The notes under the pieces are model-generated. The model had not been told where the DNA came from, searched no databases, and saw only the letters and a list, made by a program, of their open reading frames with translations. The position numbers were made by a program, and so were the translations under genes. 64,000 nt of DNA from Bacteroidota bacterium (GTDB taxonomy: Bacteria; Bacteroidota; Ignavibacteria; Ignavibacteriales; Ignavibacteriaceae). The DNA lies in assembly GCA_020161395.1 (NCBI GenBank), contig JAIUOE010000010.1:1-64000 (forward strand), in the 5' to 3' direction. Shown here piece after piece: positions 8,145 through 59,504 of this stretch; the stretch's first letter is position 1, and each line of letters starts with the position of its first letter.

Positions 8145-9065
8145 ATGAAAGAAACTTTAGAATTCCCCATAAATGTCGTCGCAAAACTTACAGGCCTTTC
8201 GTCCCATCTCATCAGGGCGTGGGAAAAAAGGTATTCTGCAATTACTCCGTCAAGAACAGGTACGAACAGGAGGGTATATACTGAAGAAGCGATCGAAAAG
8301 CTGAAATTGCTAAAGCTCCTCACCTCAAAAGGTTACTCGATAGGGAATGTGGCTTCCCTTGGTATATCGCGTCTCAAGGATATGCTGGGACAGCCGGAGC
8401 TTCACCACCATCTCCCCGGTGTGGAGCCCAAAAGTGAGGGAGACATCATCACACGATGCCTGAAAGCGATTGAGGAATACGACTCACAGAAACTCGAAAC
8501 AGAGCTGATTAAATCCTCACTTCAGTTTACCTTGCTGGAATTGTTCGACAAAGTGATTACTCCTCTCATGCATAAAACAGGTGACCTTTGGCGGGTTGGT
8601 AAACTAAGACCGGCACATGAGCATCTCGCAATTGAAACGATAAAAAGATTTCTGAGAGGAATTCAGGCAGGTTTCTCGATTCATTCTGCTGCCCCCGTCA
8701 TGGTGGTTTGTTCTCCGGCAAACCAGTTGCACGATCTCGGTGCATTCATGACCACATTCGCGGCTTCATCTGAAGGATGGAAAACCGTTTTTCTGGGTTC
8801 GAACCTTCCCGCAGAAGATATAGCAGCCGCTGCACTCCGGGTAAATGCAAAGGCTATTGCATTGAGCATCGTCTATCCGGATGACGATCCATATCTCTCC
8901 TCTGATATCCAGAAAATGGGGATTCTTCTTCCCAAAAGCATTAAAATCATCTTTGGCGGGCAATCGGTCTATGGCTACAAGAAGGAAATCGACAGCATTG
9001 GGGGTATTATAGCCGGAAATATGACCGCACTTCGGAATGTGATGCACTCGATTAGAAAAAAATAA
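8145..9065 (+). CDS. MerR-family regulator with B12-binding domain (CarH-like photoreceptor)
   Basis: The N-terminus is a MerR winged helix (residues 5-75; SSHLIRAWEKRY recognition region). Next comes a four-helix B12 cap domain with W149-x9-E159-H160, the exact W-x9-EH signature of the light-sensing CarH/LitR group. A Rossmann-type cobalamin domain follows, with axial-ligand candidate H196 and an FGG segment near residue 270. In CarH, adenosylcobalamin in the dark holds a DNA-bound tetramer and light breaks it. The usual acidic residue two positions before the axial histidine is a glutamine here (Q194-L-H-D-L-G). Length (306 aa) is normal. No carotenoid genes are near; a photolyase gene lies 8.5 kb downstream. 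Photoreceptor function is inferred from the motifs. Confidence 0.88.
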   Translation: MKETLEFPINVVAKLTGLSSHLIRAWEKRYSAITPSRTGTNRRVYTEEAIEKLKLLKLLTSKGYSIGNVASLGISRLKDMLGQPELHHHLPGVEPKSEGDIITRCLKAIEEYDSQKLETELIKSSLQFTLLELFDKVITPLMHKTGDLWRVGKLRPAHEHLAIETIKRFLRGIQAGFSIHSAAPVMVVCSPANQLHDLGAFMTTFAASSEGWKTVFLGSNLPAEDIAAAALRVNAKAIALSIVYPDDDPYLSSDIQKMGILLPKSIKIIFGGQSVYGYKKEIDSIGGIIAGNMTALRNVMHSIRKK

Positions 9066-9179
9066 AAAATTTCACCTGTTTTTTTCCGAAATTTCATAAC
9101 TTTATTAACCGGTTTTCAGCCTTTTTTGGCAGCGCCGAGGGCGGAAACAATCAGTTAATTTTTTACCGGCAGGCATAAT

Positions 9180-9680
9180 ATGAATACTAAAGACGACAGG
9201 AAAAAAAGATCCGGGAAGTTTCGCGGAATTGAAGAAGATTACCCCGGATTCGAAAAATTCAGGAAGAACAATAAATTTTACCCCGGGTATCCTCCTGATG
9301 CAAGCAAAGAAGCGATTCAAAAAATAGAATCTCAGCAGTTCGGTACAGGCCACCTTGTACACGACAGTAAAGTCCTTTTTGACGGCGACAGATCTGAAAA
9401 CACTTATAAAGAATTCAGACCCGGTGTCGTCGGAAATCCACCCACCAAAAGCAACCGGTTCCTGACCGGCTGGTTCCCCTGCAGTACAGGGAGTTTCCAT
9501 CGCAAGCGCTCCGAGACTGTTTTTCTTGACACTGACAACGACGGCATCGACCGCAAATGCTACATCCTCCTGAAGTATCGACAATTTTTTAAGTATTCAA
9601 CACTCGTGGAAAAGAAATTCGAGATTTCGGAGCAAAAGAAAACTGAACTTAAAAATAAAATGAACAATTTGGACGGATAA
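9180..9680 (+). CDS. Unknown 166-aa protein leading the sigma/MazF-like/Lon operon
   Basis: I do not recognise this protein. It is hydrophilic, with a basic N-terminus (KDDRKKRSGKFRG), a Pro/Tyr-rich stretch (residues 35-45), an acidic DTDNDGID segment near residue 120 and a Lys-rich helical tail. It has two cysteines (in FPCS and RKCY) and no signal peptide or membrane helix. The stop codon lies four bases before the next ATG, so it belongs to the same operon as the sigma-like, MazF-like and Lon-like genes. It could be an accessory, substrate or regulator of that module. A minus-strand frame overlaps much of it but lacks operon context; the plus-strand frame is preferred because of the tight spacing. 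Confidence 0.6.
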   Translation: MNTKDDRKKRSGKFRGIEEDYPGFEKFRKNNKFYPGYPPDASKEAIQKIESQQFGTGHLVHDSKVLFDGDRSENTYKEFRPGVVGNPPTKSNRFLTGWFPCSTGSFHRKRSETVFLDTDNDGIDRKCYILLKYRQFFKYSTLVEKKFEISEQKKTELKNKMNNLDG

Positions 9681-9684
9681 GAAA

Positions 9685-10704
9685 ATGGGGAAAAAGAATA
9701 AAATGAGCGAAGCAGAAAGATTTTTCAGAATGCTTAAACAGGATGATTCGCTGACATATGCCGAAATATCAGCGGCTTATGCTTGGTTCACAGGCTTTTT
9801 TGAGAAGAGAGCAAGGCAAACACTTTTTAATTTTGATGAATGGCAGGTTTTGAATGCCATGTCGGGTGTACTCGAGTCGCTTTTCACTACTTTCCGCGGA
9901 GAGGAAGCTCCCGACGATCCTGAAGCTTACCTGAGGATCACTATAGCGAACGCCTTAAAACCCCTTTATGGTGATAAAGCCGATGCAAACCGGATTGCCA
10001 CAAGAAAAAAATATGCAAAAATTTTGCAAAGTTTGGAAAACGAGGGCAGAATTTACTCTAATGATACAAAGGTCAGTGTGAATAATGTGTTCGATCAGCC
10101 TGGGCTCAGTGAAGAATCCATTTATGGTTACATTTGGCAACTCGCTGATGATGACACAAAACTTGATGCAGTGTTCATTCTCGAACTCCTGACATTAATC
10201 AATGGACCGGTTGAAGAACAATTATTGCTCAATCAGTTGGTTAATTACTCAAGAGGCATAAAAAACACTGAGGTTAGAATTGACGGAGACGAAGATCCGG
10301 AGAATGAAACACCGGAATATGAAGCAAAGGATACAAATTTTTGGGCGGATAAGGAGCTTGAAATAAAAGATTTTATGGATAATGTTATGTCGGAAATTGA
10401 GCAAGAAGCCAATTCAGATAAAATATTGAGCGAAGAAGTTTTTATGCAGCTCCTTTATTTATCGATGAGCAACAAAACCAGCAAAGAAATCGGAAAAATT
10501 GCAGGAATGACTCAGAAAAATGTTGAATACTACATATCCGAGCGGGCAAACAGAGCGATGAGATGCCACATAAAGGATTGGACTAAAGAACTTGCTGATC
10601 TATTATGGGACTACAGCGAGGAAACCGTGCTCGCCCTGTTGCAGGATGAACTGACTGTGAGACTAAAGGATAAATACCATGTATATCTACAGGGAATTAA
10701 TTGA
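9685..10704 (+). CDS. Sigma-70-like protein (ECF-type regions 2 and 4)
   Basis: A 339-residue protein. Residues 30-110 resemble sigma region 2: a helix with FFEKRARQTLF, an acidic stretch, then DDPEAYLRITIANAL followed by basic RIATRKK, similar to the AYLxxIAxN...RR pattern of ECF factors. Residues 250-296 resemble region 4: a helix, then TSKEIGKIAGMTQKNVEYYISERANRA as the helix-turn-helix. Between them is an unusually long, acidic linker of about 140 residues (IDGDEDPENETPEYEAKD), and the C-terminus extends beyond region 4. It would direct RNA polymerase to specific promoters. The next gene encodes a MazF-like protein that may be its anti-sigma factor. The match is by pattern only; the protein is divergent and longer than usual ECF factors (about 200 aa). 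Confidence 0.6.
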   Translation: MGKKNKMSEAERFFRMLKQDDSLTYAEISAAYAWFTGFFEKRARQTLFNFDEWQVLNAMSGVLESLFTTFRGEEAPDDPEAYLRITIANALKPLYGDKADANRIATRKKYAKILQSLENEGRIYSNDTKVSVNNVFDQPGLSEESIYGYIWQLADDDTKLDAVFILELLTLINGPVEEQLLLNQLVNYSRGIKNTEVRIDGDEDPENETPEYEAKDTNFWADKELEIKDFMDNVMSEIEQEANSDKILSEEVFMQLLYLSMSNKTSKEIGKIAGMTQKNVEYYISERANRAMRCHIKDWTKELADLLWDYSEETVLALLQDELTVRLKDKYHVYLQGIN

Positions 10705-10752
10705 TGAAAATTGTGCTATTGTTGCAGAAATGTGAAGCAAGGAGTGTCTGAT

Positions 10753-11757
10753 ATGGACAAAAAAGAGAAAAAGATGATCAAACAAAAAAGTGTGATGCCT
10801 GATTTGGAGCAATTCAAAAAGATGGTGGAAAAAGCCCGGGCGGCTGTGTACGAAAAACCTGATGAGATAAAACCGGGACAAATATGGGGAATTACAGGCA
10901 AGGAATACCGGTTTGTAGTTTTGTCTTCTCCAGAAGACTCCATTACAGGAAAAGATGTAAGAGTTGTTCCGGTAACACATAAGGTTCACATGGCAACCGA
11001 AACAGATGTGATACTTCCTGAAGATTTCGTTTATTATTCCGAATCTGTAGTTCTTCCGTTTCAGGTTACAAACATCATGAAGGAAAGACTCGACCTTTAT
11101 CACGGCGAGCTTAAAAAAGATATCACCGATTTCCTCCTCAAAACCGACAACAAAGGTGAGCTGGCGACACTTCCCAATTTCACACGCCAGGGCAGGAACG
11201 ATCCTTACGACCCCATAATCTTTGAATACAACGAAAACCTCAGGGAAGAGTTGTTCAGCTTTGCTCAGGAAGTTTTTCATGCTGCAGATCTGGTTGAAGA
11301 TGAGGAGAGGGTAACGGTTTTTGACACTGTAGAGAAAACATTACTGGAATTCCTGGGTTTCCTGAAGAATGCTCTCGCCTCTCCGGAACCTGAATATATG
11401 ATGATGATGGCAATGACACCCGAGAGACCGGATTTCAATCCCAGAGCGAAAAACAAGAAAATTCTTCTGAAAAGTCACGACAACATTTCAATCGCTCTTG
11501 CCACCATAAGCTCCGAGCCGGTAATGGTTTTCACAGCATTAAATCTGGAGGACGACAGAGATTTGACGGGTGTCAGAATCACTCTAACAAGCGGAGACGG
11601 TGAAGGGAGCTATTCTGATTTTCATGATGGAAATTTTGGTTCCAGACAGATTAATTTTCTGATTCCTGAAAATATAGTTCAAAATATGAAAAATGGTTTT
11701 GTTCTAACCTATAAACTCGCCGGTCAGGCGTTTGAATTACCTGTCAATTTCAAATAA
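10753..11757 (+). CDS. MazF/PemK-like domain protein, candidate anti-sigma factor and protease substrate
   Basis: A 334-residue protein. I chose this ATG because AAGGAG (10739-10744) lies eight bases upstream; a TTG at 10711 would add 14 cysteine-rich residues. Residues 38-125 resemble the MazF/PemK barrel: IKPGQIWGI, a strand with RFVVLSS, then VRVVPVT and a later VVLPFQVTNI block. Catalytic residues of MazF toxins cannot be assigned. A helical region follows (150-210), then a methionine-rich linker (residues 216-219 are MMMM) and a beta-rich C-terminal domain (235-334). Placed between a sigma-like and a Lon-like gene, it resembles CalpT, a MazF-fold anti-sigma factor cut by a Lon protease. 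That role is inferred from context. Confidence 0.55.
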   Translation: MDKKEKKMIKQKSVMPDLEQFKKMVEKARAAVYEKPDEIKPGQIWGITGKEYRFVVLSSPEDSITGKDVRVVPVTHKVHMATETDVILPEDFVYYSESVVLPFQVTNIMKERLDLYHGELKKDITDFLLKTDNKGELATLPNFTRQGRNDPYDPIIFEYNENLREELFSFAQEVFHAADLVEDEERVTVFDTVEKTLLEFLGFLKNALASPEPEYMMMMAMTPERPDFNPRAKNKKILLKSHDNISIALATISSEPVMVFTALNLEDDRDLTGVRITLTSGDGEGSYSDFHDGNFGSRQINFLIPENIVQNMKNGFVLTYKLAGQAFELPVNFK

Positions 11758-11765
11758 GAGAGCAA

Positions 11766-13001
11766 ATGTCCGGTAAAATTAACAGGATCATCAATAAACT
11801 CAGACAATACAACAATGGTTTTGATGTAGCAATCTCCGAGTACCAGCAAAAAGACAAGGAAGAGAGGGTGGATTTTTTCCTTCGAATCCGGGATGAATAT
11901 TTAACGGGAATCAGTGGACGCAGGTTAAAAGAGGATACCAAGAAGAGATTTCTGCAAATGGTATATCCCGACCAGGATGTTACATCTGAACTTCAAATTT
12001 GCAGCCGGTTCAGCCCGGTTGAATCACTTCAAATTGGCGAAACATACCTTGCAACCTACTTCTCCGAAACAACCGGAGGAGCAGCTTACAGGATGAAATT
12101 AGTTGCACAGAAAGCAACATCTCCGTCACAGATTGAAAGGAAATCTGTAAGTCCTGCTCTGACAATGATTTCCAATTTGATAAATGAAATCATCAAAGAA
12201 AAAAAGTTTTTTGTTGCAAGGAGCCATTTATTCAACTTCGAACCTGTAGTCTTCGATGCGTTTGATGTATATGTTGATGATATAAAAATAAAGGGAAGAT
12301 CACACGAACTTCCAATGGCTATGGCACTCCTTTCTACAGTTTTTAAGAGAGCCCTTCCGGCAAATGTGGCTTTTACGGGTGCATTAAATGAGTATGGAAA
12401 GATTGAGAGAGTATCCGGTTTAACTGAAAAGATTAAAGCCTTCATCAATGAATATCCTGAGGTTGATACTCTATATATTCCGAAACAGAACGAATTCGAC
12501 AAATATTTTCGTCCTGATAACATCAAAATAGTACCCGTTGACCGTTTCTCTGATTTGATGAAAATTATATTCCCCGATTTTAGTGAGATAATTGAGGGGG
12601 ACATCGAGGAAAAAATTTACTTTGAGGTGGTGAAGGATGTCGAACTAAGCCTGCCCAAGGATATGCCGGGAAAGATGGATACGCCAAAAGCAGTTTTGTT
12701 CACTTTGCAATATTCCTATGTCGGTGATCTTGGAACCGGAGTTATGAACAAGCTCAACCTTGTGGAAGAAATAAGAAAGAATACGAGTGGAGATTCTGAC
12801 TGGTTTATTCTTGACAATGTCAGACCAAACTGGTTTGTAGCTTTTCTGGCGGGAAAATTTTTTAATAAATGTTCGGTGTTTGCCATAACCAGTAAAAGTG
12901 ACGGATTTCAGAATGCTGTAGTCATTTTCAAGAGGGGAAATGTGGGCGTGAAACCGGGGGATAGAATTCCTTACACAATAAAAAAGGCTTCGGACACCTA
13001 A
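11766..13001 (+). CDS. Lon-type (S16) protease without AAA+ domain, with Csx3-like C-terminal domain
   Basis: A 411-residue protein. Residues 1-130 are helical and unassigned, with no membrane helix. Residues 130-270 match the Lon proteolytic domain: IKGRSHELPMAMALL, VAFTGALNEYGKIERVSGL and EKIKAF. S179 and K222 form the catalytic dyad, 43 residues apart as in E. coli Lon (S679/K722). There is no Walker motif or AAA+ module, so it should cut specific folded or disordered targets. Residues 307-407 resemble Csx3, a CARF-like cyclic oligoadenylate fold: RPNWFVAFLAGKF, VFAITS, AVVIF and the closing KPGDRI. The histidines of the AHKYH segment in Csx3 ring nucleases are absent, so ligand sensing rather than cleavage is suggested. 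Its stop codon overlaps that of priA by four bases. Confidence 0.75.
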   Translation: MSGKINRIINKLRQYNNGFDVAISEYQQKDKEERVDFFLRIRDEYLTGISGRRLKEDTKKRFLQMVYPDQDVTSELQICSRFSPVESLQIGETYLATYFSETTGGAAYRMKLVAQKATSPSQIERKSVSPALTMISNLINEIIKEKKFFVARSHLFNFEPVVFDAFDVYVDDIKIKGRSHELPMAMALLSTVFKRALPANVAFTGALNEYGKIERVSGLTEKIKAFINEYPEVDTLYIPKQNEFDKYFRPDNIKIVPVDRFSDLMKIIFPDFSEIIEGDIEEKIYFEVVKDVELSLPKDMPGKMDTPKAVLFTLQYSYVGDLGTGVMNKLNLVEEIRKNTSGDSDWFILDNVRPNWFVAFLAGKFFNKCSVFAITSKSDGFQNAVVIFKRGNVGVKPGDRIPYTIKKASDT

Positions 13002-17518: not shown

Positions 17519-18880
17519 ATGCAAAAACAGATAGTAGTCGATGAGAGGAGAATAAGACTTCTGCAGGAGGGGACGAACAGAAACGGGGTGGTGGTTTACT
17601 GGATGAGTCGTGACCAAAGGGCGGATGACAACTGGGCTCTTCTTTTTGCACTTCAGACGGCAAACAGACGGCAAATGCCCCTCATGGTGGTTTTTACTCT
17701 TGTACCAAATTTCCTTGAGGCAACAGAGAGACAGTATAACTTCATGATCAAGGGGCTGATGGAAGTGGAGAGAGTTCTAAGGAATCATCTGATTCCATTT
17801 AAAGTACTCCTTGGATCCCCTGAGACAACACTTCCGCAGTTTTTGAAGGAAATCAGGGCTTCGGCTCTCATCTGTGATTTCGACCCGCTGAAGATCAAAA
17901 GAATCTGGAAAAGGGATGTTGCCAAACAGATCAATATTCCTTTCTATGAGGTTGATGCACATAATGTTGTTCCTGTCCTCAATGTCAGCAACAAGGAGGA
18001 ATTTGGTGCATACACCTTGCGACCTAAAATTCACAGACTTCTTCCCGAACTTTTGACCGATTTTCCGGTACTTTTCGAACCTGTCGTCAAGGAGAGTTAT
18101 CCCGAAAGAGTCGATTGGGATTCTGTGAATTCATCTCTCGTGATCAACAGGGGGGTGAAAGAGTCGGAACATTTTCACCCCGGTTCAGGATCAGCCACGA
18201 AGGCATTACAGAACTTTCTGATCAGGAAGATAGAATTTTATGATGACAAAAGAAACGATCCAACGGAAGATTATCAGTCGGACCTTTCACCATATTTTCA
18301 TTTCGGAAAACTTGCTCCTCAAAGGGCAGCTTACGAGGCTTTTATGAGGGTAAAGAAAACAGAAGCAAAAGATGCATTTCTTGAAGAATTGATTGTAAGA
18401 AGAGAACTGGCGGATAATTTTTGCTACTACAACACGAAGTATGATTCCTTCGAGGGATTTAAGGACTGGGGAAAGCTTACCCTGAACACCCACCGGAACG
18501 ATGAGAGGGAGTTTGTATATTCACTAACAGAATTTGAGGAAGCGAAAACACACGAAGACCTGTGGAATGCAGCTCAAATGGAGATGGTAAAAAAAGGGAA
18601 AATGCACGGATACATGCGGATGTACTGGGCAAAAAAGATTCTCGAATGGAGTGAAAGTCCTGAGGAAGCCATGAGAATAGCCGTGTATCTTAACGACAAA
18701 TATTCACTTGATGGCAGAGACCCCAACGGTTATACAGGCATTGCATGGTCTATCGGTGGAATTCATGACCGCGCATGGACTGAACGAGCTGTCTACGGGA
18801 AGATCAGATACATGAACTACAATGGATGTAAAAGGAAGTTTGATACGGCAGAGTATGTTAAACGATGGCTGAGTATTTGA
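17519..18880 (+). CDS. Class II deoxyribodipyrimidine (CPD) photolyase
   Basis: FAD enzyme that uses blue light to split cyclobutane pyrimidine dimers. The N-terminal Rossmann domain begins with VVVYWMSRDQRADDNWAL, the characteristic class II opening. The C-terminal helical FAD domain contains SDLSPYFHFGKLAPQRAA, MHGYMRMYWAKKILEWS and LDGRDPNGYTGIAWSIGGIHDRAW, typical of class II enzymes, with the conserved Asn-Gly-Tyr and Trp residues. Length (453 aa) is normal. The last coding bases and stop codon lie within a 20-bp sequence that is repeated 16 bases downstream. It may serve UV protection together with the CarH-like light sensor, but no direct link is visible. Confidence 0.93.
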   Translation: MQKQIVVDERRIRLLQEGTNRNGVVVYWMSRDQRADDNWALLFALQTANRRQMPLMVVFTLVPNFLEATERQYNFMIKGLMEVERVLRNHLIPFKVLLGSPETTLPQFLKEIRASALICDFDPLKIKRIWKRDVAKQINIPFYEVDAHNVVPVLNVSNKEEFGAYTLRPKIHRLLPELLTDFPVLFEPVVKESYPERVDWDSVNSSLVINRGVKESEHFHPGSGSATKALQNFLIRKIEFYDDKRNDPTEDYQSDLSPYFHFGKLAPQRAAYEAFMRVKKTEAKDAFLEELIVRRELADNFCYYNTKYDSFEGFKDWGKLTLNTHRNDEREFVYSLTEFEEAKTHEDLWNAAQMEMVKKGKMHGYMRMYWAKKILEWSESPEEAMRIAVYLNDKYSLDGRDPNGYTGIAWSIGGIHDRAWTERAVYGKIRYMNYNGCKRKFDTAEYVKRWLSI

Positions 18881-22132: not shown

Positions 22133-23860
22133 ATGAGCCGAAGAATGAAGAAGCGAATACCATCAAAATCCTCAAATTATGCAAGTTTGATAGAAGAGAA
22201 TATTTATTTTGTTGACAAGACGAAATATATCAGGACTTTAGAGTCGATCAGCGATAAATATGTGTTTTTTCTTCGTCCGCGCAGATTCGGGAAATCTCTC
22301 ACCCTTTCCATGCTTGAATATTATTACGGCATTCAATACCGGGAAAGATTTGATGAGTTGTTCGGCCAATACTTCATCGGGCAACCGGGAAATACAACCC
22401 CCCTAAAAAACAGTTATTATATATTAAGCTTCAATTTCAGCGGAATAGGTACAGATGTCAGGGAAGAAATCAAGAAGAAGTTTGAAGTCGAAATAAGGAC
22501 TGCTCTTAAAGGTTTCATGTACACATACGGTATAAGTAGTGAACAGGAAATTAATGAGTATTTGAATATTGATGGCAGCAGTGAGCTGTTAAGAAATTTT
22601 ATGTTGATATTTAAAAAATACAGATCAGAGGGGAAAATTTATCTTTTGATCGACGAATATGACCATTTTACGAATGAATTATTCTCCTTCGACGAAGTTC
22701 ATTTCAAGGAAGTTGTTTCCCGCAACGGATGGGTCAGGAAGTTTTATGAGGTAATCAAACAGTTCATGGGTGACGGAATAATCGACCGGTTCTTTGCAAC
22801 AGGAGTAACTCCCGTTACACTCGACAGCATGACGAGCGGATTTAATGTCGCAAAAAACATCACACTTGACTACAAATTCCACAATACGGCAGGATTTACT
22901 GAATCAGAACTTTGGGGTATGATTGAAAATACCATCTATGAAGAGGGAAAGTTCGATATTGAGACGGTAATTTCAGATATGCGTTCGTGGTATAACGGCA
23001 GTAAATTCTCTTCAGAAACTACTGAGAGATTATACAATCCTCAAATGGTAATTACATTTTTGTCAAGATTCGCTGATAACTTCAAGTATCCCAAAGAAAT
23101 GGCAGATCAAAATGTAACATCTGATTACAAAAAAATATCGAATATTCTCGCTCCTCTGTCAAAAGATGAATCTGATGAAATAATATCGGGTGTTCTGGAA
23201 ACAGAAAGAACCACAGAACAACTGACAATTCAATACAATTTCGAGTTGCCCTATACAAAAACCGAAGCGGTCTCTTTATTATTCTACAACGGCTTGCTTA
23301 CAATCGAAAATGAGATGTTTGGCAAATACACATTTGTGATTCCGAATTATGTAATCAAACAGATGTATTGGGAATATTTCAGGCATCTTTTCACAATGTC
23401 CAAAAACATAAGATTTGATTCATCAAAAATAATTGATTCAATCATAGAGATGTCATTAAGAGGGAAGATAGATCAGCTTGTTGCTTATGTCCATTATGTT
23501 TTGAAAAACCTTTCAAATCGCGATCTGCAAAACTTCAACGAGAAGAATATCAAGATGATCTTCATGACTTTGCTGATGGGGAACAATGCATATTATGTAA
23601 AAAGCGAGTATGAGAACAATAATGGATATGCGGATTTACTTCTGATTCCAACTAAAATTAATCCGGGAAAAGACAGCTTCCTTTTGGAACTTAAATACCT
23701 CAAAAAAAGCAGCAAAGAAAACCTGAAAACCGAGAAGGAGAAAGCACTCGATCAGGTTTCGAGGTATAAAGCAGAACTTGCTGACAAAGGGGTTTTTTGC
23801 AAGTCATTTGCGATAGTGTTTGTTGGGAAGAGTGAATTTGTGATAGCGGAAGTTTCATAG
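22133..23860 (+). CDS. AAA-ATPase-like / PD-(D/E)XK (DUF1703) family protein, copy 1
   Basis: A 575-residue protein of the widespread family that joins an AAA-ATPase-like N-terminal domain to a C-terminal PD-(D/E)XK nuclease-like domain (Pfam AAA-ATPase_like and PDDEXK_9). The start has FVDKTKYIRTL, a P-loop-like RPRRFGKS (48-55) and the Walker B-like YLLIDEYDHF. The nuclease-like core near the C-terminus is GYADLLLIP...LLELKYLK, with the D and E-x-K residues retained. An ATG 12 bases further in (MKKRIPSKSSNYA) aligns with the start of the paralogue and may be the true start. The biological role is not established; such proteins are often multi-copy. A second copy lies 34 kb away. Confidence 0.9.
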   Translation: MSRRMKKRIPSKSSNYASLIEENIYFVDKTKYIRTLESISDKYVFFLRPRRFGKSLTLSMLEYYYGIQYRERFDELFGQYFIGQPGNTTPLKNSYYILSFNFSGIGTDVREEIKKKFEVEIRTALKGFMYTYGISSEQEINEYLNIDGSSELLRNFMLIFKKYRSEGKIYLLIDEYDHFTNELFSFDEVHFKEVVSRNGWVRKFYEVIKQFMGDGIIDRFFATGVTPVTLDSMTSGFNVAKNITLDYKFHNTAGFTESELWGMIENTIYEEGKFDIETVISDMRSWYNGSKFSSETTERLYNPQMVITFLSRFADNFKYPKEMADQNVTSDYKKISNILAPLSKDESDEIISGVLETERTTEQLTIQYNFELPYTKTEAVSLLFYNGLLTIENEMFGKYTFVIPNYVIKQMYWEYFRHLFTMSKNIRFDSSKIIDSIIEMSLRGKIDQLVAYVHYVLKNLSNRDLQNFNEKNIKMIFMTLLMGNNAYYVKSEYENNNGYADLLLIPTKINPGKDSFLLELKYLKKSSKENLKTEKEKALDQVSRYKAELADKGVFCKSFAIVFVGKSEFVIAEVS

Positions 23861-30274: not shown

Positions 30275-31891
30275 TTATTTGAGAAGAATCAGTTTCTTTG
30301 AGTCACTAAATTGTCCCGCTTTTAGTCGATAGATGTAAACACCGCTGGGTAATTTACCGGAATTAATTGTAAACTGATGTTTACCGGCACTCATGGTTTC
30401 ATTAATCAATGTCATTACTTTCTTCCCTTCAGTTGAAAATAACTCAAGGATTACATGACCGGTAAGGGGTAAAACAAAACTTATTGTCGTTGAAGGGTTA
30501 AAGGGATTCGGGTAATTTTGTGAGAGAGTGAAATTCATATCGTCCGAATTATCATACTCCAATCCGGTTGTTATATACTGGTATGTTGCTGTTGCAGAGG
30601 ATGAATAAATATAATAATAAGACTGTCCATTGTTATATGAAAAACGGATGTTTATTTGTGAACTAACCCAACTGTTATTTGACCATGAATAGTGTTGGCC
30701 GGAGACTGTATTTCCGTTATTGTCGTATGAATAGGTGTACTTCTCAGAATTTAGCCATGCATTATTCTGCCATAATTCTCGCAGGATAGACAATCGATTT
30801 CCGTTGTTGTCATAGCTATAACTGTTCTTCCTGTCATTTACCCAGTCATTATTCTGCCAGAGTTCATACAAGGAAGTCAGCCAATTTCCGCTGTTGTCAT
30901 AAAAATAAGTGTTCTTTTCGGAATTTACCCAGTCATTATTTTGCCAGAGTTCATATACAGAAAAAATGAATTTCCCATCGCTGTCGTAGGTATAGGTGTA
31001 CTTATAAGAATTTACCCAGGCATTATTTTGCCAGACTTCATACAAGTATGTCAGCCAGTTTCCGTTATTGTCATAGGTAGAAGTGTGCTTCCAGGAATTT
31101 ACCCAGGCATTATTTTGCCAGAGTTCGTACAAGTAAGAAAGCTTCTTCCCGTTGTTATCATAAGTAGTAGTGTACTTCTTGTAATTTACCCAACTATTAT
31201 TTTCCCATCTCTCATCCAACCATGTCAATTCATTTCCGTTGCTGTCATAGGTAAAAATCCACCTAAGGTTATAAACCCATGCATTGTTTTGCCATTTTTC
31301 ATACAGATCAGTCAACCTGTTTCCGTTGTTGTCATAGCTATAAGTGTCCTGATAGTAATTTACCCAAGCATTGTTCTCCCATCTTTCAGACAGCTCGTAC
31401 AATAGATTTCCGTTGATGTCATAGATATAACTGTACTTCCCGAAATTTACCCAGGCACTGTTTTGCCATTTCTCAACCAACCGCGTCAGAATATTTCCAT
31501 CGTTGTCGTAGGTGTCAGTGTACTTCCAAGAACTTACCCATGCATTGTTTTGCCATTTTTCCTCCAATTCAGTCAGCCTGTTTCCGTTATTGTCATATGT
31601 GTAGGAGTAGCGAATTGTATCTCCCACAAGTGTAAGCATGACATATTTACCTGCTGTAAAATTGGATTTATTTTGTTTTGTTCGACCGTATTTTGGTTGA
31701 TACATCTCATTAGATCTGGTAGGATCTTGAATTCCCTCTTTGATTTTGTAGAAATCCTTCGTCATATCCGGCTTGTTTCCACGGTTGCCATGATCAATGT
31801 CACGGAATTTTAGGGAATATTCTGATTGCCCCATGACAACAACACATAGGGCAACAAATAATAAGACCATTTTTTGTAAAATTATTCTCAT
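30275..31891 (-). CDS. T9SS-exported protein with eleven 29-residue YD-type repeats
   Basis: A 538-residue exported protein. The signal peptide is MRIILQKMVLLFVALCVVVMGQ. From residue 99 to 417 the chain is eleven repeats of 29 residues, each of the form YDNNGNxLTxLYExWQNNAWVNSxKYTYT, reminiscent of the YD repeats of RHS/teneurin-type surface proteins, which form a spiral beta shell. The repeats correspond to 87-bp DNA units. The last 85 residues are a T9SS sorting domain (LSQNYPNPFNPST, ending KKLILLK). There is no toxin or core domain, so it is more likely an adhesin or structural surface protein than an RHS toxin. Recombination between repeats could change its length. Confidence 0.88.
   Translation of the reverse strand: MRIILQKMVLLFVALCVVVMGQSEYSLKFRDIDHGNRGNKPDMTKDFYKIKEGIQDPTRSNEMYQPKYGRTKQNKSNFTAGKYVMLTLVGDTIRYSYTYDNNGNRLTELEEKWQNNAWVSSWKYTDTYDNDGNILTRLVEKWQNSAWVNFGKYSYIYDINGNLLYELSERWENNAWVNYYQDTYSYDNNGNRLTDLYEKWQNNAWVYNLRWIFTYDSNGNELTWLDERWENNSWVNYKKYTTTYDNNGKKLSYLYELWQNNAWVNSWKHTSTYDNNGNWLTYLYEVWQNNAWVNSYKYTYTYDSDGKFIFSVYELWQNNDWVNSEKNTYFYDNSGNWLTSLYELWQNNDWVNDRKNSYSYDNNGNRLSILRELWQNNAWLNSEKYTYSYDNNGNTVSGQHYSWSNNSWVSSQINIRFSYNNGQSYYYIYSSSATATYQYITTGLEYDNSDDMNFTLSQNYPNPFNPSTTISFVLPLTGHVILELFSTEGKKVMTLINETMSAGKHQFTINSGKLPSGVYIYRLKAGQFSDSKKLILLK
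30641..31597 (-). repeat. Eleven tandem 87-bp coding repeats
   Basis: The DNA encoding the eleven 29-residue repeats. The units are clearly related but diverged, with recurring stretches such as TTATTTTGCCAGAGTTC and TTTCCGTTATTGTCATA on the plus strand. Period is 87 bp. This is a coding repeat, not a CRISPR or satellite array. Confidence 0.9.
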
Positions 31892-57782: not shown

Positions 57783-59504
57783 ATGAAAAAGCAAATACCC
57801 TCCAAAACTTCAAATTATGCAGAACTCATTAGAGAGCAGGCATATTACATTGACAAAACAAAATTTATAGGACTGCTTGAGCAACTTAGTGATAATTACC
57901 TCTTTTTTCTCCGTCCGAGAAGATTCGGTAAATCGCTTCTAATTTCGATGCTTGAACATTATTATGGTATTCAGTACAATGATCAGTTTGAGGAATTGTT
58001 CGGAAATTATTATATCGGACAACCGGGGAACACTACGGCTCTTAGAAACAGCTATTACATCCTCAGTTTTAATTTCAGCGGGATTAAAACAGAGGATTCC
58101 GGGAGGATTGAATCTGAATTTAATTCGGAAGTTTACAATGTCATCATTAATTTTTTGAATGATTACGACATTGGTACCGAAACTGAGAAGGATATCTTCA
58201 GAAATCCTGATTTTTCAAGTCCCGAACTGCTCAGAAATTTTTTCACAATCTTTAGTAAATACAGACCGTCCGGTAAGGTATATATTCTAATTGATGAGTA
58301 TGATCATTTCACAAATGATCTGTTCTCATTCAATCAAGAGCATTTTCAGGAGGTGGTCTCCCGTAACGGCTGGGTGAGGAAGTTTTATGAGACCATTAAG
58401 ATTTATACCGGGAAAGGGATAGTCAGCCGTTTTTTTGCCACAGGAGTCACCCCGGTTACTTTGGACAGTATGACGAGTGGATTCAACATCGGGTTAAATA
58501 TTACACTCGACATCGATTTTCACAATCTTGCGGGATTTACGGAGGCTGAACTGAAAGAGTTGATACTCGGTACAATCTACGAGGAAGGGAAATTCGACCT
58601 TGATAAACTGCTTGGCGATATGCGTGCCTGGTTCAACGGTAGCCGTTTTTCGAGAAGAGGTGGTGAGAAACTGTACAATCCCCAGCTGGTGTTGAGTTTT
58701 CTATCGGCTTTTCACAAAGATTATACATATCCGGAAGAAATAACTGACAATAATGTAACAAGCGACTGGAAGAAGATCAGTAACATACTCTCAAAATTGC
58801 CCAAAGCTGACAGGGATTACATCATTGAACATGTGTATGTGGAGGAGGCGATTGAAGGCGGTCTCTCAACACAATTCAATCTGGAGATGCCATACCGCCG
58901 GGCAGACGCCATATCGGTTCTCTTTTACAACGGACTTCTGACAATTGACAAAGAGGAGTACGGTATAATCAGGTTTGTGATTCCGAATTATGTTATTAAA
59001 ACCATCTACTGGGAGTATCTGCGTGCAGTGTATGAGATGGAGCAGAATATTTCGTTTGACCTTTCCGAAAAAGCCCGCATTTTCAAGCAGATGGCGAGTG
59101 AAGGAAAGATTGATTACCTCGTAGAAGAAGTATCGAAGATTATGGAACCGCTGAAAGACAACGACTTCCAGAACTTCCGTGAAAGCAATCTGAAGATGAT
59201 TGTAATCTCCATTCTCTCATTAAACAGGATATTTATTATCGACAGTGAGAGAGAGATTTCAAACGGCAGGCTTGATCTTCTTCTTACGAGATATGATGCG
59301 TATGACTCCAAGTATCAGTTTCTAATCGAATTCAAGTATTTGAAGATGAAAGATGAATCGAAGTACGAGCAGATAAAGAACGAGGGCATCGCCCAGCTCC
59401 AGAGGTACAGGTCATCGGAAGAGATAAAACGCCTGGAAAACCTGAAGTGCTATTTAGTCCTTTTCAGCAAAAAGAAAATTGGAGAGGCGTTTTTAATCCA
59501 ATAA
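57783..59504 (+). CDS. AAA-ATPase-like / PD-(D/E)XK (DUF1703) family protein, copy 2
   Basis: A 573-residue paralogue of the protein encoded at 22 kb. It has the same P-loop-like RPRRFGKS (44-51), YILIDEYDHF and the strongly conserved SRNGWVRKFYE and DSMTSGFN segments, and the nuclease-like NGRLDLLLTR...LIEFKYLKMK. The D and E-x-K residues of the PD-(D/E)XK core are retained. The two copies differ at many positions along the whole chain, so the duplication is old or they were acquired separately. The family is often multi-copy; its role is unknown. Its stop codon falls inside an octamer quartet. Confidence 0.9.
   Translation: MKKQIPSKTSNYAELIREQAYYIDKTKFIGLLEQLSDNYLFFLRPRRFGKSLLISMLEHYYGIQYNDQFEELFGNYYIGQPGNTTALRNSYYILSFNFSGIKTEDSGRIESEFNSEVYNVIINFLNDYDIGTETEKDIFRNPDFSSPELLRNFFTIFSKYRPSGKVYILIDEYDHFTNDLFSFNQEHFQEVVSRNGWVRKFYETIKIYTGKGIVSRFFATGVTPVTLDSMTSGFNIGLNITLDIDFHNLAGFTEAELKELILGTIYEEGKFDLDKLLGDMRAWFNGSRFSRRGGEKLYNPQLVLSFLSAFHKDYTYPEEITDNNVTSDWKKISNILSKLPKADRDYIIEHVYVEEAIEGGLSTQFNLEMPYRRADAISVLFYNGLLTIDKEEYGIIRFVIPNYVIKTIYWEYLRAVYEMEQNISFDLSEKARIFKQMASEGKIDYLVEEVSKIMEPLKDNDFQNFRESNLKMIVISILSLNRIFIIDSEREISNGRLDLLLTRYDAYDSKYQFLIEFKYLKMKDESKYEQIKNEGIAQLQRYRSSEEIKRLENLKCYLVLFSKKKIGEAFLIQ

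Follow-up and report, generated by a model that had tools for sequence, protein, structure and literature searches.

The closest described relatives of the locus considered here couple a Lon protease to a signal sensor. In the CalpL/CalpT/CalpS system of Sulfurihydrogenibium, the protease CalpL cuts CalpT and so frees the sigma factor CalpS (PMC11417357, PMC12751052), and CalpL is reported to be activated through oligomerisation induced by cyclic tetra-adenylate (cA4) (PMC11417357). A 23-kDa fragment of CalpT resembles MazF (PMC9704534), and fusions of CARF to Lon were predicted in literature that the same paper cites. For the ring nuclease Csx3 (Crn3), it is reported that cA4 bridges dimers into filaments, and His57, His60, Asp69 and Arg71 are named as the catalytic residues (PMC7371418); all these statements follow the accessible portions of the papers. 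Here we describe a four-gene operon of a Bacteroidota bacterium of the family Ignavibacteriaceae (contig JAIUOE010000010.1), located at positions 9180-13001 of the window, by which we mean the whole 64,000-nt stretch of DNA that was analysed. The last gene of the operon is predicted to encode a Lon protease joined to a Csx3-like domain, and the operon is likely to be a variant of the CRISPR-associated Lon cascade in an arrangement that is apparently new within the open-access literature searched. As far as the accessible text of that literature goes, we found no account of a Lon-Csx3 protein or of the four-gene operon, which does not establish absence from print. The genes and their predicted parts are as follows.

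Gene 1, 9180..9680, plus strand: 166 amino acids (aa), small protein of predicted MazF/PemK fold.
Gene 2, 9685..10704, plus strand: 339 aa, divergent protein resembling sigma factors, in which region 2 was detected and region 4 is weak.
Gene 3, 10753..11757, plus strand: 334 aa from ATG 10753, predicted MazF-fold protein, CalpT-like candidate anti-sigma factor.
Gene 3, parts: MazF-fold region at model residues 50-153 (the modelled protein begins at TTG 10711), with helical and beta-rich C-terminal parts.
Gene 4, 11766..13001, plus strand: 411 aa, predicted Lon (S16) protease with a C-terminal Csx3-like domain.
Gene 4, domains by family profiles and AlphaFold model: Lon at about residues 85-281, with Ser179 and Lys222; Csx3-like at about residues 283-405.

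Family profiles and, for the Lon part, a structural model indicate that gene 4 encodes a Ser-Lys protease of the Lon type to which a Csx3-like domain is fused. The window protein matches Pfam Lon_C (E 1.1e-6), its AlphaFold model has a predicted local distance difference test score (pLDDT) of 77 and matches Lon protease domains with a Z of about 20 over about residues 85-281, and Ser179 and Lys222 are kept in all 16 proteins of the family, down to 14% identity. When a profile of these 16 proteins was compared with the PDB, it matched CalpL (7qda, E 1.4e-6) through the Lon part and archaeal Csx3 (6yud, E 2.7e-4) through the C-terminal part. A profile of the C-terminal domain (15 rows) matched Csx3 at E 3.2e-6, with an alignment that spans residues 13-99 of the 111-residue AfCsx3 chain; it also matched Cat1, a CRISPR TIR effector (E 0.0086), and no SAVED chain up to E 1. 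Direct matches to Csx3 models were obtained for two of the 16 members, L004 (E 6.5e-6, residues 330-392) and L108 (E 0.0034, residues 309-382), and none for the window's own gene 4. A preliminary description of this DNA, made from the letters and their open reading frames (ORFs), had placed a Csx3-like domain at the C-terminus of the protease and seen no membrane helix in it; the profile and member matches bear out the first point, and a hydropathy that peaks at 1.34 over 19 residues, where a membrane ORF of the window reaches 3.50, agrees with the second. The Foldseek and VIA lists for the whole gene 4 model were filled by Lon and Lon-like domains and are uninformative on the C-terminal part.

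The Lon part is alike in this protein and in the CARF-Lon and SAVED-Lon fusions modelled in PADLOC, and it is through this part alone that the window protein matches the CRISPR-Lon and CARF-Lon models (about 1e-10). Among the 16 members, seven match the CRISPR-Lon model (best 2.3e-11) and five the CARF-Lon model, and in the members shown it is again the Lon part that the SAVED-Lon models match. In contrast to the known fusions, the C-terminal domain is left uncovered in the window protein and the 10 other members shown singly, since the matches stop at or soon after the Lon domain. The SAVED-Lon model run over 395 genomes of the phylum gave 0 matches at E 1e-25, a threshold at which the controls also gave 0.

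The Csx3-like domain of the window protein is related to Csx3 by sequence (compared with the accessible part of PMC7371418) and differs from it in being fused to a protease and in having lost, on the alignment, the ring-nuclease residues: Gly363, Phe366, Thr375/Ser376 and Lys377 stand at the positions of His57, His60, Asp69 and Arg71. Neither histidine position holds a histidine in any of the 15 rows of the C-terminal alignment; position 376 is Asp in 4/15 rows, the window not among them. In the cA4-binding loop, Gly-Arg is kept in L106 and L107, and the window protein has Asn-Val.

The reading that we favour, and regard as reasonably probable, is a regulated-proteolysis cascade of the CalpL/CalpT/CalpS type in which the SAVED sensor has been replaced by one of the Csx3 type and a MazF-like protein has been added. 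Genes 2 and 3 would encode a sigma factor and its anti-sigma partner. A ligand, either a cyclic oligonucleotide or something similar, would be sandwiched between Csx3-like domains, much as cA4 is by Csx3, and the sandwich would oligomerise the gene 4 protein and switch on its Lon domain; the activated protease would then cut the gene 3 protein, freeing the sigma factor for a defence transcription programme. Since cA4 drives the oligomerisation of CalpL and also bridges Csx3 into filaments, an exchange of SAVED for Csx3 would keep the trick. The SAVED domain of CalpL destroys cA4. With the ring-nuclease residues lost, the window protein would be expected to capture and retain the signal in its Csx3-like domain without destroying it, and a signal longer-lived than in CalpL is therefore predicted. 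The likeness to the Sulfurihydrogenibium system (PMC11417357, PMC12751052, as far as the accessible text goes) lies in a protease that combines Lon and a sensor, a MazF-like target and, less firmly, a sigma factor, since here too a protein that is MazF-like by predicted fold, gene 3, is encoded beside the protease, and gene 2 is a candidate sigma factor; the differences are that SAVED gives way to a Csx3-like domain of about 125 residues and that there is a fourth gene, of predicted MazF fold. The type III-E system Csx29-Csx30-CASP-sigma is a more distant parallel: there too a CRISPR-activated protease cuts a sigma inhibitor and the operon has an extra gene, but that protease is of the CHAT type, bound to Cas7-11 and activated by target RNA, with no Lon, and MazF goes unmentioned in the accessible portion of the paper (PMC10028731).

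That the four genes are real, conserved and maintained is indicated by comparison with a sister species (G003; the window genome is G000), because the whole operon is intact there with all four frames open and the ratios of nonsynonymous to synonymous substitution (dN/dS) show constraint. These ratios, which rest on this one genome pair, are 0.24, 0.46, 0.18 and 0.063 for genes 1 to 4, and 0.011-0.034 for five neighbouring genes. The preliminary description had four genes on one strand separated by 4, 48 and 8 bases, and the ORF map of the window confirms it when gene 3 is begun at ATG 10753, the start that the 48-base gap requires and one preceded by the ribosome-binding-like AAGGAGTG; the ORF tool had called an alternative start upstream, TTG 10711. 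The order and tight packing are seen again in 13 measured loci, the window included, where 39 gaps run from -38 to +75 bases and 27 of them are overlaps, figures that use first possible starts and so may overstate the overlaps.

The operon appears to encode two MazF-fold proteins, gene 1 with the active-site pair and gene 3 without it, an assignment made from profiles for the one and mainly from a structural model for the other. The profile of 14 gene 1 members matches MazF in the PDB at E 5e-9, and Pfam PemK matches six of the 14 (best E 0.00029), with no Pfam match for the window's own gene 1. Arg80 and Pro81 are present in 14/14 members, as is Ser or Thr at position 102 (Ser102 in the window), and in the family profile alignment the Arg and the Ser/Thr fall on MazF active-site positions, which we take to be the catalytic pair of MazF. 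The gene that leads the operon was previously described as extra and of no recognisable kind; extra it is, and the family profile now gives it a MazF fold. For gene 3 a MazF likeness had been proposed from the start, and it stands: Pfam PemK matches the window protein at E 0.0012, below the curated cut-off, and 2/10 members; in the AlphaFold model (pLDDT 71.6, predicted template modelling score 0.48) the block means reach 81-93 over residues 51-150, and all 50 of the Foldseek rows listed are MazF-family chains (best E 2e-4). VIA aligns the model to MazF with Z 10.8 and a root-mean-square deviation of 3.0 over 103 residues, and the two CcdB rows of its list (Z 8.7-8.8) come last, after MazF. 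Compared with the MazF/PemK mRNA interferases, both proteins share the fold, but gene 3 has no conserved Arg at the MazF catalytic position (column 67 is R in 3/15 and varied elsewhere, the exact alignment being uncertain), and no MazE-type antitoxin was recognised in the operon.

This pair allows a different account of what the protease sets free. Gene 1 could be an active MazF-type RNase silenced by gene 3, so that signal-activated Lon, in cutting gene 3, would release the toxin together with the sigma factor and produce a two-armed response of growth arrest and transcription. The preserved Arg and Ser/Thr of gene 1 set beside the missing Arg of gene 3, the common fold, and the presence of gene 1 with genes 2-4 in 14/16 genomes all fit such a release, as does the dimeric nature of working MazF toxins. 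On the other hand, gene 1 might be an additional regulator; pairing between the gene 1 and gene 3 proteins is putative, the window's gene 1 shows no Pfam similarity and the comparison of the two profiles is weak (hhalign 19%, E 0.0012), and we regard the two-armed account as unlikely, if worth keeping in view.

Gene 2 is likely, but not certainly, sigma-like on profile evidence. Its family profile matches region 2 of SigR (1h3l) at E 0.0067, and hhalign against eight extracytoplasmic function (ECF) sigma factors of related genomes gave 82% and E 1e-5 over region 2, where 14 controls, made with reversed profiles and with the other three families, stayed at or below 0.4%. Of nine members scanned, two match Sigma70_r4_2 (best 0.00059; the window protein 0.17) and one matches Sigma70_r2 (0.0046). 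The sigma factor of the preliminary description is favoured by SigR and the ECF set, and it is left weaker by the other sigma sets, which are taken up below.

A search with the window's Lon or with family profiles, covering 59 relatives, a sample of 395 genomes of the phylum and a sample of 391 genomes of the class, found the module in 16 genomes, nine of them among the relatives, two more in the first sample and five more in the second. In 14 of the 16 all four genes occur in the same order (a count that includes G027, whose contig ends within gene 1), in keeping with the earlier view that the genes belong together; in G049 the locus is cut inside gene 2. This common order goes beyond chance, because the Lon proteins, the sister's (91%) aside, are just 14-28% identical to the window's. 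Viral contigs searched with genes 1 and 4 gave pattern matches only and no relatives, and tblastn with the same two genes gave none in plasmids.

In relatives the module keeps company with type III CRISPR, as CalpL does. Cas10 (PF22335) is detected in 14/16 carriers and goes undetected only in the window genome and its sister. Within the 59 relatives Cas10 is present in 7/9 carriers and 12/50 others (Fisher p 0.0034, a figure that ignores relatedness). In G037 (locus L081) the Lon gene lies 41 bases from the Cas10 frame, in G561 (L106) one gene, cmr1 by eye, separates module and Cas10, and in G059, G449, G488 and G006 both are on one contig within about 25 kb. The expectation of a cyclic nucleotide synthase in the same genomes is answered by Cas10 in these 14; no Cas10, SMODS or mCpol was found in the remaining two. 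The signal in the Cas10-bearing relatives is probably a Cas10 product.

An ordinary Lon protease beside a MazEF-like toxin-antitoxin pair, with no cascade at all, would account for the Lon and MazF similarities. Against it stand the Csx3 domain, the recurrent four-gene order, the Cas10 company and the failure to find any AAA+ family among the Pfam and NCBIfam domain matches of gene 4, which span the protease part only. It is already disfavoured by the conserved gene order, and we find it barely credible.

Two kinds of genes were also seen near the module in relatives. Csx20-like ring nuclease genes lie at L035:2969-3337 (matched by a model at E 1.3e-6, short of the curated cut-off) and, by eye, at L079:1128-1589, L105:15180-15545 and L107:5235-5603, a sign that the genomes concerned use cyclic oligoadenylate signalling. 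The second kind, again recognised by eye, is von Willebrand-like or lipoprotein-like and lies at L034:8631-9428, L035:2195-2827, L079:2180-3115 and L104:11294-12061; some of these genes have a membrane protein as their partner, and they may belong to the module as additional components.

Several results weigh against a CalpL-type cascade. The window's gene 2 reaches no Pfam sigma-family cut-off, and hhalign gave 25% against 13 mixed sigma factors (a set without frames L132, L134 and L138, which were ill-chosen or too long; with them 19%) and 8%, E 0.004, against five primary-type sigma factors, the latter over the C-terminal portion, in which region 4 is expected. Compared with the PDB by sequence, the family profile of gene 3 found no MazF and only Fic proteins (E 0.19), and when the N-terminal segments of five gene 3 relatives were made into a profile, no anti-sigma structure was matched; the role of anti-sigma factor is a candidate one, proposed by analogy with CalpT. 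In the gene 4 model, block pLDDT is 60-81 over the C-terminal part. One carrier (G017) shows only Lon, truncated at a contig end, with a Csx20-like gene and none of genes 1-3 ahead of it. The comparison of Cas10 between carriers and others in the 59 relatives ignores relatedness, and distant carriers may have escaped detection among the 50 others, all of which were searched with the single window protein and only partly with family profiles. Finally, Cas10 gave no match in the window genome or its sister, and no SMODS or mCpol cyclase was found in the four genomes of the genus (G000-G003). Even so, we consider it likely by analogy that the operon works like the CalpL cascade, though it fails two CalpL features, the SAVED domain and, in the window genome, Cas10. 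The interpretation in the preliminary description is on the whole supported, because the sigma and MazF likenesses, the Csx3 domain and the co-occurrence of the genes, on which it was made to depend, were each found, the sigma likeness less firmly; its signalling model stays something that we infer.

The copy in the window genome requires separate consideration. The Csm1 model does give weak matches in the window genome and its sister (E 1.8e-4 and 3e-4, frames of 737 and 739 aa), but they cover positions 4-122 only and were set aside as Cas10 candidates, being tentatively read as another HD protein. The window genome has a Cas1-bearing CRISPR locus, type I by eye (L143:11587-19499, contig C12); in the sister the Cas1 match is short and holds a stop, and the adjoining genes look type I by eye. 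As first described, the window itself has no CRISPR locus: no CRISPR-like repeat array was found in its 64,000 nt, and the only repeat family detected consists of 87-base units arrayed in tandem within a coding frame. In the tree the window clade (G000, G003, G002:C183; support 96/96) is placed among rows from Cas10-bearing genomes, with many end branches long. The Csx3 part of gene 4 has a dN/dS of 0.056 between the window genome and its sister, which suggests that a ligand is probably still read. In a genome without detected Cas10, that ligand must come from another source.

One explanation for this copy is that it has left CRISPR and become a house-keeping stress switch, fixed between merR and priA and answering a ligand that is not a Cas10 product. 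The operon occupies this site in the window genome, in G003 and in G002, in G001 merR and priA are separated by 337 bases that hold no ORF of 70 aa, and constraint has been kept though no Cas10 is detected. The case is tempered by G002, which carries, besides the copy at this site, a Cas10 locus in which one small ORF separates Csm1 from a second, cut Lon-like gene, so that the site does not exclude CRISPR use; furthermore, just two genomes are without Cas10. We see such a switch as a real, if tentative, possibility. Alternatively the operon could be a relic, its signal lost together with Cas10 and its genes decaying. The missing Cas10 of the two genomes would agree with this, as would the fast change of gene 2 (70% identity between the two genomes, against 91% for gene 4), the least constrained of four genes that are all less constrained than the five measured neighbours. 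Decay is, however, at odds with four frames open in both genomes, the low ratio of the protease and its intact Ser-Lys dyad, and we judge it very unlikely.

The operon is preceded by a short segment.

Leader between merR and gene 1, 9066..9179, plus strand: likely promoter and ribosome-binding region.

This leader is well conserved with the sister genome and little with the shorter piece compared from G002. Promoter-like sites around it were not above shuffles, and none fell inside 9066..9179. Directly upstream of the operon is a CarH-like MerR/B12-binding regulator (window 8145-9065; NCBIfam CarH 98 bits, cut-off 400), and about 8 kb further on from it a gene that looks by eye like a photolyase (window 17519-18880), so that light regulation near the operon is possible. 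Elsewhere in the window, ten tandem copies of the 87-base repeat (30721-31590) lie inside a minus-strand frame (30275-31891) for a secreted-looking repeat protein, and two proteins of 575 and 573 aa that look like paralogues, and whose beginnings resemble an AAA-ATPase by eye, are encoded about 34 kb apart (22133-23860 and 57783-59504).

The strands of the argument could be combined in a bolder form, which we hold to be doubtful: a dead Csx3 domain, acting as a sensor that holds its ligand, would polymerise and switch on Lon, one cut in a MazF-fold protein would free both a sigma factor and a MazF-type RNase, and in the window's genus the whole would have become detached from Cas10, answering some other messenger. 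Returning to the CalpL-type cascade, if that reading is true, the CRISPR Lon cascade would be modular, with an exchangeable sensor, and a relative of Csx3, an enzyme that normally ends a signal, would have become the reader of one. From the additional MazF-fold gene it seems that a single cleavage may set two effectors free. Thanks to the copy for which no Cas10 was detected, the question of which messenger an orphaned CRISPR effector reads becomes testable.

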